This document shows, one piece after another, positions 2,527 to 13,119 of a DNA stretch of 23,828 bases. The translations under genes and the position numbers were made by a program. Where the stretch lies: the IMG/VR virus record IMGVR_UViG_3300042400_001014, positions 1 to 23,828 of that record; one strand, 5' to 3'. Position 1 is the stretch's first letter. Each line of letters begins with the position of its first letter. The stretch is from a virus. The notes under the pieces are model-generated. The model did no database searches, was not told where the DNA came from, and was given only the letters and a program-made list of their open reading frames with translations.

Positions 2527-2683
2527 AATATCTCTCGTCTCTATTTTGTTTCATACGTTCTCTAAATTGCTGTAAAGTTTGGTAATCAGGTAGATGGTAA
2601 TCGACATCCCCCATGTCTCTTTGCATGTCTTCTAAATAAAAATAATAAAAGAAAGCATCGTCTATACTCATGTCGTCATACAT
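2519..2683 (-). CDS. small acidic/aromatic protein between polymerase and VRR-NUC
   Basis: The 54-residue product (MYDDMSIDDAFFYYFYLEDM...) matches no family I know. It is rich in Asp and Tyr, has an aromatic block at residues 10-15, and ends in a basic, probably helical tail. The start at 2683 was chosen over an upstream ATG at 2740 because GAGGTGGG lies just before it and because it overlaps the polymerase stop by a few bases, implying coupled translation. Its own stop overlaps the VRR-NUC start. The position inside the replication block suggests a small accessory protein for the polymerase or nuclease, but this rests only on context. Confidence 0.65.
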   Translation of the reverse strand: MYDDMSIDDAFFYYFYLEDMQRDMGDVDYHLPDYQTLQQFRERMKQNRDERYYA

Positions 2684-4460
2684 ATCCCACCTCTTTGAGG
2701 AGATCGTGCGCCATTTGTACGTACACTTGGTAATCCACATCCGATGGGAATGTATCTGGTAGAGTCATTAAAGGTTTGCCACCTCCAGACATGGGTACTC
2801 TGTTTGAGTTCTTGGCATAGTGAATACATGTATCTTTAGGCACTTCTGTTGAGTAGTAGAACCTAACAGCTTTACCAAGATACTCATCTTGCCAGACAGC
2901 CCCACCTGTGACCCTGCGCACAGTTACGAACTGTGTTATGTCTTGACACTCTTTAATAGTTTTCTCAACAGGAATGTTTTTGGCTACACAAAGTGCTACA
3001 GCACTCTTGACAATAGATCCGTCAGGGTTCTTAGCTAGACCTGTGGATGCGAACACACCTTTACCTTTAACCTTGCCATCTGTCTTTACAGCGAGGTAGT
3101 TATTGACGTCTCTTGATGCGAGTTTGACGTAGTCAGTTGTTTCAAGCTGATAGCTGGTATCTAATTCCCATTCAAAAGCAACAGCGTTACACTCATGTAT
3201 TAAGCTTTTTGGAGCATAACATACAATACCATCAGTATTAGCAGATACGATTTGAATACCTACGTCCTCCATGCGTTCAATGAGCATGAGCAGAGCTAAC
3301 TGCCCTGTTATAGTTGTTTGAAGCAATAGGTCTGGAGCATAGAGAAGACTATATTTAGATCCAAGTTTGCCGAATGAGCCGTTCAAAAAAATCTTAAGGG
3401 TGTTGGCAACAACATTGTCACCTTGTTTCTTGGCAGCAATACGTTCAGTAACAATACCTTGGTACAACTCTAAGAAAGGTTTGCCCATATTCTTAGGTGC
3501 TACTTGTTGCTGTAAGATGATGCTTGGATAATAAGACACAACATCTCGATCCTGTAAGAACCAGTCATCAGGTGCGTTGATGTATTGACTCTTCTCACAA
3601 GAGTGTAAGCCACCGATACCCATCTGATACTTGCGACCGTTGATTACAATAATTTCTTTCTTTAACCAGTCAGGTAAGGTTAGAGCACCATTGAGTCCAA
3701 GTGTGAACTTCTGATCAATAACTCGCTGTAATATTGTGTCTAGTTGCTCAGTCTTGAAACTGATGATCTCAGGGTCTAAGTATCTGAAGGTGTCTGTAGG
3801 TTTTACATTAGGACGACTTAGTTCTTTCTTAGTTATCTTTGTAAGTTCACTTGCAAGTACTGCTTCAGCAATCTGTGCATCAGACTTTGAGCGTAGATCA
3901 ATACCATACTTTGCGGTCATACTTTCACGCAGAGTGATCTGAGGTAGCAGGGAGTCGTAGAGAAGTTTTGTAGTTTCTAAGTCGTTCTTACAATATGTAC
4001 GGAGTTCTTCTCGTTGCTCTGGTGATATTGATGCGTCAGGAGCAATGGGTAGGTCTTGAATAGTAGGAGCGTTTAATCTACCACCGTAGATTTTAAGTGA
4101 GACCATTCCTGGAGCAACCTCGATAAGATCAATGGTATTCCAGTCTTCCTGCATGTTAAGTTTGTTGGTTTTGTAAATGCTCCACATGGATGCATTTGAT
4201 CCGATGATACTGTCGCAAAGTCCTTTTAACTTGTCGTTATCATAACCATCTACTGCAGCAACGAGCATAGGTATGTCGAATTTGTTTGAGTTAAAACCTA
4301 TAGTTATATACTTACGCATTAGATCGTTAACACGCTCTACATCCAGAGGGTGGCCTTCGTACATTTCGATATTGATAATTCGTCCCGTATCTACTTCCAT
4401 TGCAGAAAGTAAAAAGTAATCTTTGTATACTTCTGTATCTATTATTATTTTCTTTTTCAT
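2676..4460 (-). CDS. family B DNA polymerase with proofreading exonuclease
   Basis: This 594-residue replicative polymerase has a DEDD 3'-5' exonuclease domain: Exo I with D8 and E10 (IIIDTEVY), Exo II GFNSNKFD near 55-62, and Exo III TYCKND with Y156 and D160. The polymerase domain shows motif A with D306 and SYYPSII (309-315), motif B KIFLNGSFG (356-364) and motif C NTDG (408-411). The order and the SxYPSII signature place it in family B. Motif C has Asn where most family B enzymes have the first Asp of DTDS. The start at 4460 (MKKKIIIDTE) was preferred over an ATG at 4511, because the latter falls inside a terminator hairpin; the ribosome site CGGAAC is weak. Expression probably depends on read-through of that terminator. 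Confidence 0.92.
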   Translation of the reverse strand: MKKKIIIDTEVYKDYFLLSAMEVDTGRIINIEMYEGHPLDVERVNDLMRKYITIGFNSNKFDIPMLVAAVDGYDNDKLKGLCDSIIGSNASMWSIYKTNKLNMQEDWNTIDLIEVAPGMVSLKIYGGRLNAPTIQDLPIAPDASISPEQREELRTYCKNDLETTKLLYDSLLPQITLRESMTAKYGIDLRSKSDAQIAEAVLASELTKITKKELSRPNVKPTDTFRYLDPEIISFKTEQLDTILQRVIDQKFTLGLNGALTLPDWLKKEIIVINGRKYQMGIGGLHSCEKSQYINAPDDWFLQDRDVVSYYPSIILQQQVAPKNMGKPFLELYQGIVTERIAAKKQGDNVVANTLKIFLNGSFGKLGSKYSLLYAPDLLLQTTITGQLALLMLIERMEDVGIQIVSANTDGIVCYAPKSLIHECNAVAFEWELDTSYQLETTDYVKLASRDVNNYLAVKTDGKVKGKGVFASTGLAKNPDGSIVKSAVALCVAKNIPVEKTIKECQDITQFVTVRRVTGGAVWQDEYLGKAVRFYYSTEVPKDTCIHYAKNSNRVPMSGGGKPLMTLPDTFPSDVDYQVYVQMAHDLLKEVGYV

Positions 4461-4501
4461 ATTGGTTCCGTATGGGGGTAGCCCATATTTTAGTGATAAA
4501 A

Positions 4502-4523
4502 AAGGCCTCAATTAAGAGGCCTT
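4502..4523 (-). terminator. rho-independent terminator after the DUF2815 gene
   Basis: AAGGCCTC and GAGGCCTT form a perfect 8-bp stem with a 6-base loop. On the minus strand it is followed by TTTTTTATC. It lies between the DUF2815 gene and the polymerase, so it would cut most messages after the abundant DNA-binding protein and let a minority continue into the polymerase. Confidence 0.85.
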
Positions 4524-6495: not shown

Positions 6496-6722
6496 TACGC
6501 TGGTACTCCATGTAATAGGTTTATCGCTGCGGGATAGAGTTGAGCAAGCTCTTCTATATCCAAATGGATATATTTCCCCTCAGAGTATATAGTAAAGTAA
6601 TGTGTTGCTCCTTCATCGTTTGTTTCTATACCTATATATACGTCGGTTGCACAAGGTGATTCACCTTTTTTATGTATCGCCATTGTGCGTGGCGTATATC
6701 TATGTGTATCATGATTGATCAT
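6495..6722 (-). CDS. small hypothetical protein
   Basis: This is a 75-residue protein with no recognised family (MINHDTHRYTPRTMAIHKKG...). It begins with a polar, His-rich segment, then has alternating strands (TDVYIGIETN, HYFTIYSEGKYIHLDIEEL) and ends in a hydrophobic helix. The ribosome site AAGGA precedes the ATG. The ATG overlaps the stop of the upstream 132-residue gene, and its own stop overlaps the DUF2800 start, so it sits in a tightly coupled leftward operon. Function is unknown. The coupling argues for a stable partner or accessory of the nuclease, but there is no direct evidence. Confidence 0.75.
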   Translation of the reverse strand: MINHDTHRYTPRTMAIHKKGESPCATDVYIGIETNDEGATHYFTIYSEGKYIHLDIEELAQLYPAAINLLHGVPA

Positions 6723-7117
6723 TTTTGTTCCTTTTTAATAGTGACTAGTTTTGAAAATAATATAGGGAGTTCTTTGTCAGAAATTTGTGACAAAGACTTT
6801 GCACCATTGAATGAAGCAAAAGCCTGTTGCACTTTCGGTTTATCATCTCGGTTCTTGTCCATGATGTCCTTGCAGAACATTGGAATCTCTTCACGTAAAG
6901 CCCCATATGATGTCTCATCTAGGTTAGGTGCTTCTTCTATATCACTTGGAGTTACAGCAACAAGTGTGTTATCTTCTTCGTCCCTAGCTTGTTTATCAGC
7001 CAATGCTTTTTCGTAAGTATTGAAATCGTCATTTAAATCTTTTGATATTTCACCAATTGCGATGGTGAGTTTGGTTACAGCGAGGGTGAGTTCCTCGATT
7101 CTTTTTTCTAAGCTCAT
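6719..7117 (-). CDS. hypothetical protein with N-terminal coiled coil
   Basis: This 132-residue acidic protein starts MSLEKRIEELTLAVTKLTIA, with heptad spacing that predicts a coiled coil over about residues 3-45. A loop rich in Glu, Asp and Pro follows, then a helical C-terminal part (FASFNGAKSLSQISDKELPILFSKLV). It is the first gene of the leftward replication operon, with a strong ribosome site (AAAGGAAG) and the divergent control region directly upstream. Genes of this shape (coiled coil, then a short helical domain) are common at the head of DUF2800/DUF2815 modules. I cannot name a family or function. Coiled-coil oligomerisation is the only safe inference. Confidence 0.8.
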   Translation of the reverse strand: MSLEKRIEELTLAVTKLTIAIGEISKDLNDDFNTYEKALADKQARDEEDNTLVAVTPSDIEEAPNLDETSYGALREEIPMFCKDIMDKNRDDKPKVQQAFASFNGAKSLSQISDKELPILFSKLVTIKKEQK

Positions 7118-7138
7118 TGTACTTCCTTTCTATAGTTG

Positions 7139-7177
7139 TTGACGGTGTTGACTAACTTTGTTAAGCTAGTGTCAACA
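7139..7177. promoter_or_regulatory. divergent control region with TGTTGAC/TGTTAAG half-sites
   Basis: The 88-bp gap between divergent genes holds five half-sites of one motif: two direct TGTTGAC-type copies (7138-7152), TGTTAAG (7159-7165), its inverted partner GTCAACA (7171-7177) and a CTTAACA half-site just after (7179-7185). The pair at 7159-7177 forms the 19-bp operator TGTTAAGctagtGTCAACA. TTGACA-like -35 boxes exist on both strands, but neither -10 box is strong. The layout is typical of a phage switch region. Confidence 0.6.
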
Positions 7178-7205
7178 TCTTAACACAACCAATGGGAATT
7201 ACAAC

Positions 7206-7391
7206 ATGAGAAATGAAATTTTTAAATATTTTGGCGGTAAGGCAAATTTAGCTAAACAAATGCTAGTACATAGGTCTTCGGTATCACAGTGGATCAAGCG
7301 TGGTATACCCGCAGTTAGAGCGATGGAGATTGAAGAGTTATCTTGTGGAAAGTTTAAGGCAGTGGAGATCATGGCAAAATGGTCAGACTAG
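7206..7391 (+). CDS. YdaS/Cro-like helix-turn-helix regulator
   Basis: This 61-residue protein has the shape of Cro and YdaS family DNA-binding proteins. It begins with a helix (NEIFKYFGGKANLAKQM), then VHRSSVSQWIKRGIPAVRAMEIEEL, where SSVSQWIKRG is the recognition helix followed by the Ile-Pro turn and the A-M-E-I-E helix of the family. It likely acts as a dimeric repressor. The gene lies just after repeated TGTTGAC/TGTTAAG half-sites, so autoregulation and control of the divergent leftward operon are expected. It is the best candidate in the window for binding the 19-bp operator found at four other promoters. No CI-type partner with a peptidase domain is seen here. The primase-helicase gene follows 36 bp downstream on the same strand. 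Confidence 0.85.
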   Translation: MRNEIFKYFGGKANLAKQMLVHRSSVSQWIKRGIPAVRAMEIEELSCGKFKAVEIMAKWSD

Positions 7392-7427
7392 AGTGACGTT
7401 GCAGTTAATAATTGACGAAGGATTTTT

Positions 7428-9989
7428 ATGATCAATACAATGAAATTTCACATCGCTGTCGGATTGGATCTGGGCGTATGTGAAAACAAAGAGATGACAT
7501 GGGAGAAGTTATGCAGTGCTTTTACCACACATAAGGTTTCTTCCAGTAAGGTTGGGCGGTACTTTGTAGGTGGTTACTTCAGTGGCAATGTACGTAGGGA
7601 TGAGTTTCTAGTACAGAGAACTCTGCTCGTACTAGACATTGATGATAGTGAAATGACTCAGGCTGAGTTAGAGTTTGACTTGATACTTGGGTTGGACTGT
7701 GCTTTTGTTGTGTACTCTACGTACTCACATACAAAGGATGCAGCTAAGGTTAGAGTAGTTATACCGTTAAGTCGTGGTGTTACTCCAGTTGAGTATAGAG
7801 AACTGTCGCAGAAGTTCGTAGCAGAGTTAGGTATTAAGTGTGATCCTTGTTCGTTCAAACCGAATCAGGTTATGTACACACCTAGGTGTAAGAGTTTGGA
7901 TAATGCATGGTCGATGCGAATGGATGGTGAATGTTTAGACGTTGAGCCTTTGCTTAAGAGTGTGGGTTCGGGTGTGGTTGATGTTGGTTTTGACTTAGAA
8001 TCTGCCGATGTTTCTGCCGATGTTGAAGATGCCGTCAAGGGCATGTTGGCTGTGGTCGCAGCAGAACCTTTAGACATATCAGATAACGAAGTTTCTGCCT
8101 ATCTTGATGCTTATCCATCCTTGGGTTCTGAGTATCACGATTGGCTTAATGTAGGCTTAGCATTACATCATCAGTATAGAGGTAGTGAGCAGGGGTTTGA
8201 GCTATGGTTTGATTGGTCGAATGTCGGATGTGATGATGAAGGGTTCGAACGTGAGCGTGAGGATCGGCATGAGTTATGGGTTAAGTACAAAGGCTTTGGC
8301 AATGGTCAACGGGAGAAGCCTCGCACCTTTGCTTCGGTAAAACATGCTGTAAAAGAGCGTGGTGGACTGGACGAGGCAGTAGTTGCTGAACTGCGTGGTG
8401 TTATGGTTGCAAGTTCAGAGGACTTTGAAGAGCTGTTGGTCGAGGCGTCTGAGATTGAAGACTGGGGTGCTTATAACATCTTTAAAGACAAGCTGTTGCG
8501 TATGAGTACGGTTAAGTTGGGTACAGACTTACGTTCAGCAATTGCGTCTGAGTTGTTTGCAGGGATTGGTAAGGCTAAGGGTATGAGTAAGGCTGAGATC
8601 AAGAAAGCAATTACTCCAGCAGGGGTGAGTAATGGAGGATTGGTTAGAGACGAAGGGGAAGTAGCAGACTGGGCTTCGGTGTGGATATACATAGAGGCAA
8701 CACGTTTGTTTTATAATGTTAAGCGTAACTATGGGATTAGTCGTGAGGCATTCAACGCTAAGTATGATCGTATGGAAGAGTGCGTTGCGTCTGGTATGCA
8801 AGCCTCCCAGCTCTGCTTGGTGATCTATAAGATAGAGACAGTCGTTGATACGATCTTCTGGCCTGGAGCTGGGCAGATCGTTATGTTTGAGGGTAAGCGT
8901 ATGTTCAACTCTTACAGAAAGAATGGCGTTAAGCCTTGTAAGGGGTTGGAGGGCGGTGATGGTGGCGATGGAGGTGGCGAGGGTGAGGGTGATTCGGAAG
9001 GTCGTGAGGTTGTTGGGATGTTTCTCAAACATTTAGAGCACCTGATAGACGATGAGGTAGAGCGGGAGATAGTTCTGCACTGGATGATCTTTGTGGTACA
9101 GAATCCAGGAAAGCGGTTGAATTGGTCGTTGATATTGCAGGGTACGCAGGGTTCGGGTAAGTCATATATAGGCAATGTTATGGCACTACTGTTGGGTAGT
9201 AACGTGCAGTCGTTGGATACGGCTACGATCTCAGGGAGGTTTACCTCTTGGGCGACAGGGGCGATATTGAACATTGTCGAGGAGATCAGGATTAGTGGGA
9301 CGAATCGCTGGGCTATTATGGATAGGATCAAACCTTATATAACGAATGATCAGATTCTTTGTGAAAAGAAAGGTCGAGATGTGCAAACGCTACCGAACTT
9401 TACTTCGTATTTGCTTTTGACTAATCATAAGGATGCTGTACCGCTGGATGATGAGGATAGACGATACTGTGTGGTCTATTCGAGATTGCAAACGTCTGAG
9501 CAATTACATGAATACTTTGGCGGTGCTGAGAAGGTTGAGGAGTATTTTGATAGACTATTCACAATGACTAGGGCGAGACCTGATGCTATTGCTAGGTATT
9601 TTATGGACTATAAGTTACCTAGTTCTTTTAAGCCTTTTGGAAGAGCACCGAAGACTGAAGCTAAATCTCAGATGATCGATCTTGCTGTATCAGAAGTTCA
9701 TCAAGAAGTTGAGGATTTGTTAAGCAGGTTTAAAGATAGTCTCATTACCGATGAGTTTATTGATGTGACACATCTTAATGATGTTGCGTTGTTAAATGGG
9801 GAAGAAGTGCCGAAGACTAGATCGCTTTCGTCTGTGTTGTTGGATATGGGATTTAGACCGATTAAGGGCGGGTTTTTTAGGGTCTATAACCCAGATAGGA
9901 AGCACAGAGTTTGGGTCAAGGAAGGAATAACTGATGACTTTGCGATTGAAAAGGTTAAGGGAGCGTTGAAGGAGAAGAGATTAGTGTAG
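7428..9989 (+). CDS. primase-helicase: PrimPol, PriCT-2 and SF3/D5-like helicase
   Basis: This 853-residue protein combines priming and unwinding. An archaeo-eukaryotic primase domain fills the first 160 residues, with the metal-binding D70-I-D72 (LLVLDIDD) and the YSTYSHT...RVVIPLSR segment (96-116). A PriCT-2 type region follows at about 220-310 (DWLNVGLALHHQY...WFDWS). The C-terminal half is a superfamily 3 / poxvirus D5-like helicase with Walker A GTQGSGKS (about 572-579), Walker B ILNIVEEI (about 613-620) and sensor LLLTNHKDAVPLDDEDRRY (about 662-680). A Gly/Glu/Asp-rich linker near 505-528 separates primase and helicase halves. GAAGGA before the ATG supports the start. Together with the leftward polymerase block it completes the replisome. 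The gene ends at a strong terminator. Confidence 0.9.
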   Translation: MINTMKFHIAVGLDLGVCENKEMTWEKLCSAFTTHKVSSSKVGRYFVGGYFSGNVRRDEFLVQRTLLVLDIDDSEMTQAELEFDLILGLDCAFVVYSTYSHTKDAAKVRVVIPLSRGVTPVEYRELSQKFVAELGIKCDPCSFKPNQVMYTPRCKSLDNAWSMRMDGECLDVEPLLKSVGSGVVDVGFDLESADVSADVEDAVKGMLAVVAAEPLDISDNEVSAYLDAYPSLGSEYHDWLNVGLALHHQYRGSEQGFELWFDWSNVGCDDEGFEREREDRHELWVKYKGFGNGQREKPRTFASVKHAVKERGGLDEAVVAELRGVMVASSEDFEELLVEASEIEDWGAYNIFKDKLLRMSTVKLGTDLRSAIASELFAGIGKAKGMSKAEIKKAITPAGVSNGGLVRDEGEVADWASVWIYIEATRLFYNVKRNYGISREAFNAKYDRMEECVASGMQASQLCLVIYKIETVVDTIFWPGAGQIVMFEGKRMFNSYRKNGVKPCKGLEGGDGGDGGGEGEGDSEGREVVGMFLKHLEHLIDDEVEREIVLHWMIFVVQNPGKRLNWSLILQGTQGSGKSYIGNVMALLLGSNVQSLDTATISGRFTSWATGAILNIVEEIRISGTNRWAIMDRIKPYITNDQILCEKKGRDVQTLPNFTSYLLLTNHKDAVPLDDEDRRYCVVYSRLQTSEQLHEYFGGAEKVEEYFDRLFTMTRARPDAIARYFMDYKLPSSFKPFGRAPKTEAKSQMIDLAVSEVHQEVEDLLSRFKDSLITDEFIDVTHLNDVALLNGEEVPKTRSLSSVLLDMGFRPIKGGFFRVYNPDRKHRVWVKEGITDDFAIEKVKGALKEKRLV

Positions 9990-11166: not shown

Positions 11167-11555
11167 AAGACATGCTGTCCTATTACTTTTACCTTTTTGC
11201 CTCGTGAGTGAGGTTTTTTACCTGTATTCCAGGAATCGGCTACGCCAATCAGTTTGTGCTTAGATGAGAGCGATTTCGCAGCGAGGGTTTTGAAGTAAGG
11301 TTGAAGCTTTAGCGGTATATGTTTACGGGTAACACCTTTGATCTTACATGTAGATCGTTCTGATCGCTTTGCTCTATTGATCGAAGCATGGGCTACAGCT
11401 AATTTGCCAATCTCAGGCTCACCACGAGCTTCAGCGTAGATGATGCTACTAAGGCATTGGATTTCTTTATTCGTTGCGTGGTGACGCTCAGCGTAGGTAG
11501 AATGAGTAGGAATGAGGATAAGTGTAGCGGATAAAGCGAGTGTTGGTAGATTCAT
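11145..11555 (-). CDS. SleB-type cell wall hydrolase (endolysin candidate)
   Basis: The 136-residue protein has an N-terminal hydrophobic segment ending in an Ala-rich site (LALSATLILIPTHSTYA), which suggests export by a signal peptide or signal-anchor. The rest is a Hydrolase_2 (SleB) domain: SSIIYAEARGEP carries the catalytic Glu, followed by KLAVAHASINRA, and the end has ADSWNTGKK and GQHVFYV, both typical. The family cleaves peptidoglycan as a lytic transglycosylase or amidase-like enzyme. The start at 11555 was chosen because GGAAG lies 7 bases before it. An ATG at 11570 would add MGRLL, including a positive charge useful for export, but has no ribosome site. It lies alone, with no holin or spanin beside it, between a terminator and a convergent gene. 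Confidence 0.85.
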   Translation of the reverse strand: MNLPTLALSATLILIPTHSTYAERHHATNKEIQCLSSIIYAEARGEPEIGKLAVAHASINRAKRSERSTCKIKGVTRKHIPLKLQPYFKTLAAKSLSSKHKLIGVADSWNTGKKPHSRGKKVKVIGQHVFYVMSSL

Positions 11556-11578
11556 AAGTAATCTTCCCATAGTTAAGA

Positions 11579-11615
11579 TAAAAAAGAGGGTAACCTAAGC
11601 TGTCTTAAGTTACCC
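11579..11615 (-). terminator. rho-independent terminator between kilA-N and sleB genes
   Basis: On the minus strand GGGTAACTTAAG pairs with CTTAGGTTACCC (12 bp, one G-U pair) around a 4-base loop and is followed by TCTTTTTTATC. It lies after the KilA-N gene and 24 bp before the SleB start, so the lysin is probably expressed by read-through or its own weak promoter. Confidence 0.85.
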
Positions 11616-11645
11616 TTAAAGGTACACCCTTCAGAAGTGTATGTT

Positions 11646-12245
11646 TTAATTCTCTACAGCGGAATGGACTAAGTTATCAAACGTCATTGTCTTTGTTGTC
11701 TTGCATAGCAGGATCACATTGCGTTGAAGTCTATCCCTTTCATTTAGTTGTTCTTCTGTTGCACTATTCCAGTCGACAACACCTACTGTTTCACGAATTA
11801 GATTTGCAGTATTGCTGTAAAACCAATATTTAGCACCGATATTAAACTGAGCATCTAACGCTTCGTTCATAACCTTGAATGAATTGCCAGAATCAACACG
11901 TTTTATTAGTAGTTGATCAGCCATCCATTTATATATTTCAACTTTAAGTGACGGGCTAAGCCATAGTGCAAAATCCATAGCTAAGAGTTTATGCCCCCAT
12001 GTAACACCCGATCTACCTTTGGATGCTGATTTAACTGTTGTAATATTCTCAACAGACTTAAGAACTTCCATAAACTCTTGAGCTTCTGTGGTTGTAAAAT
12101 AATCACTTAACTTTCTCTGAGTCAAACCAGCCATGCTCCTAGCATTATTGCCAGCCAGTAATAAATCGTTCAATGAAATGAAATCGTCTTTAGTCCTTTG
12201 ACGAACATCGTAACCGTTTAATTGTCTTAACATGATATAGCTCAT
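11646..12245 (-). CDS. KilA-N domain protein (regulator or antirepressor type)
   Basis: The 199-residue protein has a KilA-N domain over about residues 10-115. Typical segments are NGYDVRQRTKDDFISLNDLL, then YFTTTEAQEFMEVL, SGVTWGHKLLAMDFALWLSP and the helix KVEIYKWMADQLL. The C-terminal 80 residues are helical and do not match a common partner domain. KilA-N proteins of phages bind DNA and often act as antirepressors or as lytic regulators. GGAG stands 7 bases before the ATG. The gene is expressed from a striking 56-bp palindromic promoter directly upstream, which suggests that the protein or another symmetric regulator controls it. A strong terminator follows. Confidence 0.88.
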   Translation of the reverse strand: MSYIMLRQLNGYDVRQRTKDDFISLNDLLLAGNNARSMAGLTQRKLSDYFTTTEAQEFMEVLKSVENITTVKSASKGRSGVTWGHKLLAMDFALWLSPSLKVEIYKWMADQLLIKRVDSGNSFKVMNEALDAQFNIGAKYWFYSNTANLIRETVGVVDWNSATEEQLNERDRLQRNVILLCKTTKTMTFDNLVHSAVEN

Positions 12246-12255
12246 AATAACTCCA

Positions 12256-12311
12256 AATTGTATGGTTTAGAAAATACATATTATAATATATATTTTCTAA
12301 ACCATACAATT
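12256..12311. promoter_or_regulatory. 56-bp near-perfect palindrome holding a symmetric promoter
   Basis: Arms at 12257-12276 and 12291-12310 are perfect 20-bp inverted repeats (ATTGTATGGTTTAGAAAATA and its complement). The centre contains ATATTATAATAT, itself a palindrome, so only one base pair in the whole 56 bp breaks symmetry. TATAAT can be read on both strands, and on each strand a TTGTAT box lies 18 bp before it. This gives one promoter facing the KilA-N gene (leftward) and a mirror copy facing right, into noncoding DNA and the end of the small-gene operon. It could also form a long cruciform. Confidence 0.7.
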
Positions 12312-12391
12312 AAAATTAGGTAAAGCCACAACTATTTAACCCTAGTTTATAAAATTACATAAGTTAATCTAATGAAATTATATTATGTTTT

Positions 12392-12460
12392 AAATATAAT
12401 ATTTTCCCATCGGTTCTTCTCATGTAATTTCATCATATTCCAAATGTAATATTTTCTCAT
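12392..12460. repeat. 19-bp direct repeat, 50 bp apart, after the small-gene operon
   Basis: AAATATAATATTTTCCCAT (12392-12410) and AAATGTAATATTTTCTCAT (12442-12460) differ at 2 of 19 positions and are spaced exactly 50 bp. They lie between the last gene of the leftward small-gene run and the palindromic promoter. The segment holds no ORF I trust and no GC-rich terminator. Confidence 0.5.
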
Positions 12461-12464
12461 TGAA

Positions 12465-12701
12465 TCAATCGTCTAGAACATAATCCTCAGTCACTAGAAT
12501 CCCATCACCTTTGTAAGTGATATAGATTTTAACCTCGTCATTAACGATCTGGTAATACTGTGCAGTTCTGGTTATCAACTTACCTGACTCGGTCTTAAGT
12601 GTCACATGATCCTTACGACCATACTGATCTAGATAACACCATCTGGTATTATTAACCAAAGGTATTTTCGTGAAGTGTTGTGTATTAATTATTGCAGTCA
12701 T
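12465..12701 (-). CDS. hypothetical protein, last gene of the small-gene run
   Basis: This 78-residue protein (MTAIINTQHFTKIPLVNNTR...) is predicted to be mostly beta structure with alternating polar and hydrophobic residues, for example VKIYITYKGDGILVTEDYVLD. No family is recognised. AAGGA stands before the ATG, and the ATG overlaps the stop of the upstream 73-residue gene by 4 bp. It is the 3' end of the leftward small-gene series. No clear terminator follows; two 19-bp direct repeats occupy the next 70 bp. Confidence 0.75.
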   Translation of the reverse strand: MTAIINTQHFTKIPLVNNTRWCYLDQYGRKDHVTLKTESGKLITRTAQYYQIVNDEVKIYITYKGDGILVTEDYVLDD

Positions 12702-12919
12702 TTCTTTTTCCTTTTGTTTGCAAGTTCAGCCTCAAGTTCGGCTATGCGTTTCTCTAAGTCAGCCACATAGTTAATCGCTATGAGTAGATGCGTACCGATC
12801 CTCCATGCTACAGCTCGGGACATCAATCGCTTTCGTACGTCTTCGTGGAAACAATTCTTATCTACCCATGCCATGGCTTCGTCTATCGTTATTGATCGGT
12901 AGTCTTTTTCTTTTCTCAT
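12698..12919 (-). CDS. hypothetical protein with C-terminal coiled coil
   Basis: The 73-residue product begins MRKEKDYRSITIDEAMAWVD and ends with a clear heptad helix (VADLEKRIAELEAELANKRKKK), so it should dimerise or oligomerise through its C-terminus. The lysine-rich end could also contact nucleic acid. No family is recognised. The ATG overlaps the preceding stop and its own stop overlaps the next start, so it is coupled on both sides. The function is unknown. Confidence 0.75.
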   Translation of the reverse strand: MRKEKDYRSITIDEAMAWVDKNCFHEDVRKRLMSRAVAWRIGTHLLIAINYVADLEKRIAELEAELANKRKKK

Positions 12920-13119
12920 ACACCCACCTTGTATTCTAAATTTGTATAGAAGTTTTCCCCTGTTATTTTGTCAATAACAACACATCTAGGAAATGATTTG
13001 TTCCATTCAACATTGTGTTGATTTAATGAGTCACACGCTCGTATTGCCTGTTCACCCGTTCTCCAAGATTCCACAACATTACCTGTATTAGTATTCATAA
13101 TAATGTATCTATCGTTCAT
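12916..13119 (-). CDS. small hypothetical protein
   Basis: A 67-residue protein (MNDRYIIMNTNTGNVVESWR...) with no known family. The pattern YIIMNTNTGNVVESWRTGEQAIRAC resembles the small strand-strand-helix domains common in phage early proteins. The start at 13119 has GGGGA 6 bases before it and overlaps the methyltransferase-like stop (ATGA). An ATG 12 bp upstream is less well placed. It has two Cys but no metal-binding spacing. Function is unknown. Confidence 0.7.
   Translation of the reverse strand: MNDRYIIMNTNTGNVVESWRTGEQAIRACDSLNQHNVEWNKSFPRCVVIDKITGENFYTNLEYKVGV

Follow-up and report, generated by a model that had tools for sequence, protein, structure and literature searches.

A near-perfect 56-bp palindrome ahead of a phage KilA-N gene as a candidate promoter-operator

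The 23,828-nucleotide stretch of viral DNA analysed here (the window) carries, on its leftward strand, a gene for a KilA-N domain protein preceded by a near-perfect 56-bp palindrome. This dyad overlaps a promoter-like pair, is conserved with paired changes, and is linked to the KilA-N gene and to the DNA-binding domain that it encodes; judged from sequence comparison, it is probably the promoter-operator of a single-gene regulatory cassette that would be autorepressed by KilA-N. The initial annotation had read the palindrome as the same promoter on both strands, blocked by a dimeric regulator. A candidate KilA-N dyad operator over a promoter is the part of that interpretation that stands, on the evidence of the co-varying arms and linked DNA-binding domain; the asserted rarity of such a promoter and an antisense role for its rightward transcript do not. 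The features concerned are:

12256-12311 (no strand assigned): 56-bp palindrome, proposed KilA-N operator, from its sequence and the co-varying arms in the relatives L001 and L002
12280-12309 (minus strand): promoter-like pair TTGTAT-N18-TATAAT in the gene direction, the top-scoring promoter of the leader, with a unique pattern and a predicted start at ~12273
12258-12287 (plus strand): mirror-image rightward promoter-like pair TTGTAT-N18-TATAAT, from sequence, with a predicted start at ~12294; no rightward gene follows
11646-12245 (minus strand): gene for a KilA-N domain protein of 199 aa (PF04383, E 1.1e-10)
11587-11616 (minus strand): intrinsic-terminator-like hairpin just 3' of the KilA-N gene, outside the swapped segment
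11646-12464 (minus strand): exchangeable slot, holding the palindrome and KilA-N gene in the window, a Rha-type gene and another promoter in L006-L008, L010 and L011; the gene in L012 matches Rha more weakly

With regard to transcription, KilA-N binding, oligomeric state, and repression rather than activation, we infer the following. Host RNA polymerase would start the leftward KilA-N mRNA from the TATAAT in the palindrome centre, and KilA-N, as a dimer or a pair of dimers, would bind the dyad where it covers the -10 and -35 boxes; once bound, it would silence the promoter of its own gene and, unavoidably, the mirror promoter as well. The latter would exist mainly as a strand copy arising from a perfect dyad on the -10 box, any rightward RNA being weak or incidental.

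The palindrome and its promoter-like pairs

The palindrome (window 12256-12311, AATTGTATGGTTTAGAAAATACATATTATAATATATATTTTCTAAACCATACAATT) consists of two 28-nt arms, 12256-12283 and 12284-12311, without a spacer, and ends 10 bp before the ATG of the leftward gene. The arms are complementary at 27 of 28 pairs, the sole imperfect pair, C12277/T12290, being a G.U wobble in the leftward RNA and C.A in the opposite strand; the initial description of a 56-bp palindrome with one broken pair, upstream of a KilA-N gene, is thus accurate. In each of 20 simulations of equally AT-rich 24-kb sequence, palindromes with no more than one mismatch reached arms of 10-15 bp at best, so arms of 28 bp are far beyond chance; the next-best palindrome in the window has arms of 13. 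No known RNA family was matched at the palindrome, and megablast to phage genomes gave no match. An intrinsic terminator is ruled out, the stem being AT-rich and followed by no T run on either strand. A repeated regulon site is likewise rejected; within the three KilA-N contigs, and allowing up to two mismatches, the half-site was found nowhere but at the palindrome, which suits autoregulation.

TATAAT occurs at 12282-12287 on the plus strand and at 12285-12280 on the minus strand, with TTGTAT at 12258-12263 and 12309-12304, respectively, and a spacer of 18 bp on both strands, as had been annotated. The pattern TTG-N19..21-TATAAT is present at these two sites only, on both strands of the 23.8-kb window; TATAAT alone occurs 17 times. 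TTGTAT is a weak -35, fitting only three of the six consensus positions, and the pair is for this reason unlisted by a consensus promoter scanner.

Overlapping TATAAT elements on opposite strands are the mark of bidirectional bacterial promoters that share a -10 element. Such divergent promoters are widespread: according to one report (PMC12825309) they give rise to 19% of E. coli RNAs, and their start sites usually lie 18, 10 or 23 bp from each other. The claim that a symmetric bidirectional promoter is rare is thus not borne out. The present locus resembles those described by the Warman/Grainger group in having divergent predicted starts around one symmetric -10, with mutually exclusive polymerase binding, albeit at a predicted spacing of ~21 bp as compared with the known peaks of 10, 18 and 23 bp (PMC12825309). 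It differs from them in having no gene in the second direction, and the unusual feature is the symmetry, which extends 28 bp each side, taking in both -35 boxes and further sequence outside them. TATTATAATA reads the same on either strand, so any dyad with TATAAT at its centre must carry a second TATAAT facing the other way, and the mirror promoter needs no selection; it probably arose as a by-product, the -10 box being the centre of the dyad.

The small genes to the right of the palindrome form a run, all leftward; there is no divergent gene pair here, and therefore a rightward RNA would have antisense targets only. A functional role for such an antisense RNA is unsupported, in that no rightward gene is present here or in the relatives, the first ~150 nt of the RNA would be a non-coding stretch mostly missing in L001 and L002, and the TATAAT/spacing pattern of L002 is no longer symmetric. 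The stretch beside the palindrome that is mostly absent from L001 and L002 (12329-12464) contains imperfect repeats, AATATAATATTTTCCCAT and AAATGTAATATTTTCTCAT, and an inverted pair, 12366-12383 and 12422-12439.

The KilA-N gene, its slot and its relatives

The KilA-N assignment is by profile match to PF04383 (41.7 bits versus a curated cut-off of 23.8, E 1.1e-10). The predicted fold weakly resembles the Mbp1 DNA-binding domain and the dimeric DNA-binding protein DdrC (Foldseek, E 0.003-0.03), its lowest-confidence linker being at residues 115-117; a search of solved structures by sequence gave no match. A Shine-Dalgarno GGAG sits between the palindrome and the ATG, and the predicted terminator-like hairpin closes the single-gene unit. 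Leftward beyond the hairpin (11616-11587) lies a gene whose product weakly matches a cell-wall hydrolase.

Several other observations concern the window more broadly. Its portal protein is ~43-45% identical to those of Pelagibacter phages HTVC027P and HTVC023P. Homologues of the KilA-N protein carry the label 'amidase' (PHROG phrog_6095, lysis category) in Vibrio phage D67 and many relatives, a label that looks wrong, the member in the window matching the KilA-N domain. A 611-aa protein (2676-4511) is, by eye, family A DNA polymerase-like, with no Pfam match at E 0.001. Cumulative GC skew turns sharply at 6500-7500 and 11500-12300, around the rightward primase gene, the second turn being near the palindrome. 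In the gap between two leftward genes at 885-923, two near-identical 15-bp palindromes, TTTACATAATGTAAA and TTTACATTATGTAAA, stand 9 bp apart and look like tandem operators.

The palindrome is kept in place in L001 (KilA-N 97% identical) and L002 (82%), ~10 bp ahead of the KilA-N start in all three KilA-N phages. A pattern scan of the whole collection, in which the relatives are metagenomic fragments, matched only the contigs of these two; with the window, the palindrome-bearing sequences number three. Aligning the relatives, a check suggested in the initial annotation, reveals that the arms do co-vary: across the sequences, three column pairs (arm positions 7, 9 and 10) have changed on both sides (A-T to G-C; G-C to A-T; G-C to C-G and T-A), and 91.7% of cells are paired versus 33-54% when the partner strand is slid. 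In L002, seven positions no longer pair, four of them in the arm and three close to the centre; the best TATAAT of its gene strand is 15 or 20 bp from TTGTGT, and its opposite strand has only TATATT/TATTAT. Because of this layout, exact promoter symmetry is not conserved, the dyad being largely kept. The dyad overlaps the gene's own likely promoter and is conserved with paired changes, as is looked for in an autoregulatory operator.

The slot is bounded by a 78-aa gene and the hydrolase-like gene, with swap edges sharp at both. Five relatives with a Rha-type gene (PF09669) in the slot share these neighbours, with flanks up to 95-97% identical to the window (L007/L008), and their leaders have a different promoter-like sequence without a strong dyad; no dyad near the -10 was seen in these Rha leaders. 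The palindrome is absent from these five and from L012, and therefore travels with the KilA-N gene. Across the three KilA-N contigs and the six relatives with another slot gene, the putative operator is co-inherited with the regulator and co-diverges with its DNA-binding domain.

The latter point is apparent from comparison of the window with L002. Their DNA is ~60-78% identical over 11901-12320 (the palindrome and KilA-N DNA-binding domain) as against 88-95% over 12501-12920 and 80-100% to the left of the block; overall, the C-terminal half of the gene and the flanks are mostly 80-100% identical. In the protein, 32 of the first 110 residues differ versus 4 of the 89 C-terminal ones, the break being near residue 110-117, at the linker of the predicted structure. 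Because synonymous differences are also raised in the DNA-binding half (37 versus 16), recombination is likely part of the cause, and the divergent block could come from one recombination event without co-adaptation. The linked block is what would be expected of an operator and a recognition domain that make up one specificity unit, and no other observation argues as strongly for the predicted binding of KilA-N to the palindrome. Since the arms change together and with the DNA-binding half of the protein, the palindrome appears to be KilA-N's own binding site. Counting against the operator reading, no more than three sequences have the palindrome itself, 28-bp arms are long for a single dimer and their perfection is unusual, and the L002 centre is less symmetric, with its candidate -10 and -35 boxes 15 or 20 bp apart.

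The leaders of seven more distant homologues (34-38% identical) also contain promoter-like pairs, and a dyad lies within 4 nt of the -10 more often than in controls whose flanks were shuffled (combined p 0.004; 0.010 when L032 is left out). Individually, L017 (p 0.004) and L032 (p 0.047) fall below 0.05; L032 has the strongest dyad among the distant leaders, its core, AATATATATTATATAATATATATT, resembling that of the window. The leaders of L013, L015 and L031 have no significant dyad. Given these nulls, the inflation of dyads by AT-richness and the inclusion of three related Vibrio leaders, the signal is modest, supportive rather than decisive. A shared half-site word, ATGTATT, is present in six of nine distant leaders versus 0.7 expected; it was rejected as not significant, shuffles matching the best count for some 7-mer. 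The KilA-N genes of enterobacteria, and those of Bacteroides type embedded in operons, were not preceded by any comparable dyad.

Alternative explanations

The chief competing explanation is a switch at the mRNA level, through a hairpin that resembles that of T4 gene e or is cleaved by RNase III. RNA reading through from the run of small genes would carry the full 28-bp hairpin at the KilA-N ribosome-binding site and be poorly translated or cleaved, and RNA started inside the palindrome would be without the left arm. The sole mismatch, a G.U wobble for the leftward RNA and C.A for the opposite strand, fits such a switch, as do the stability of the leftward hairpin (-29.9 kcal/mol, z -11.5, versus -25.6 for the other strand) and its position directly adjoining GGAG. 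It is nonetheless unlikely: left-flank shuffles mask GGAG equally or better in 34% of cases, the short transcript masks it too (unpaired 0.20 versus 0.09 in the long RNA), the distant homologue L032, with its strong dyad, has an open start region (0.88), and the linked divergence of the DNA-binding domain is unexplained. In the leaders of T4 gene e, soc and I-TevI, the 5' strand of a hairpin beside the ribosome-binding site includes a promoter-like sequence (PMC3014915), an arrangement shared by the KilA-N leader. Unlike in the T4 gene e leaders, sequestration of the KilA-N start is not above chance, and ribosome-site masking as a selected feature, i.e. a T4 gene e-type sequestered start, was rejected as no better than with shuffled flanks.

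Binding sites do not usually require arms as perfect as these, and template switching in replication, by copying changes from arm to arm, perfects inverted repeats and yields compensatory changes (PMC8794818), such that neither the perfection nor the paired changes would need strong selection. Mutational upkeep as the explanation is distinctly unlikely, as it does not account for the fixed place, the central promoter or the link to KilA-N type; it is compatible with an operator, and both may act together. The palindrome might also be a replication origin, cruciform or recombination site driving the swapping of regulator cassettes, since it is AT-rich and near-perfect, borders an exchangeable segment and lies close to where cumulative GC skew peaks. 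This is very unlikely, in that the skew follows gene direction, Rha-type relatives have the same slot without the palindrome, and there are no iterons or second copies. N15-type telRL is a ~56-bp palindrome, and in size and symmetry the present one is similar; a telomere resolution site of a linear-plasmid phage is, even so, barely credible, since eight related contigs, up to 60 kb long and all possibly fragments, yielded no protelomerase (PF16684).

Relation to known regulatory modules

In lambdoid immunity regions, operators and the repressor N-terminal domain vary together. The locus is similar in that the candidate operator and DNA-binding domain diverge as a block next to a C-terminal domain that is conserved, and in that regulator cassettes of different families replace each other. 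By contrast with the lambdoid modules, the regulator would be KilA-N rather than an HTH repressor, and a single long palindrome lies over one promoter, in place of several short operators. No integrase was seen in the relatives, and lysogeny control is therefore probably not involved.

It is possible, if on the doubtful side, that KilA-N, as a stand-alone phage protein, recognises the 56-bp palindrome on a fully symmetric two-way promoter, and that a specificity module made up of operator and DNA-binding domain is exchanged without change to the C-terminal half. A literature search for KilA-N protein binding sites found no report; if true, this proposal would make the locus a two-strand autorepressed switch and the first KilA-N-family operator defined, within the literature searched. 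At this locus, phages that are nearly identical in other respects have KilA-N and Rha regulator cassettes exchanged in a single slot. KilA-N proteins occur commonly among phages, and the locus gives a concrete 56-bp candidate site which, together with the natural variants bearing paired changes and a natural chimera of the DNA-binding domain, makes sequence recognition by KilA-N directly testable.
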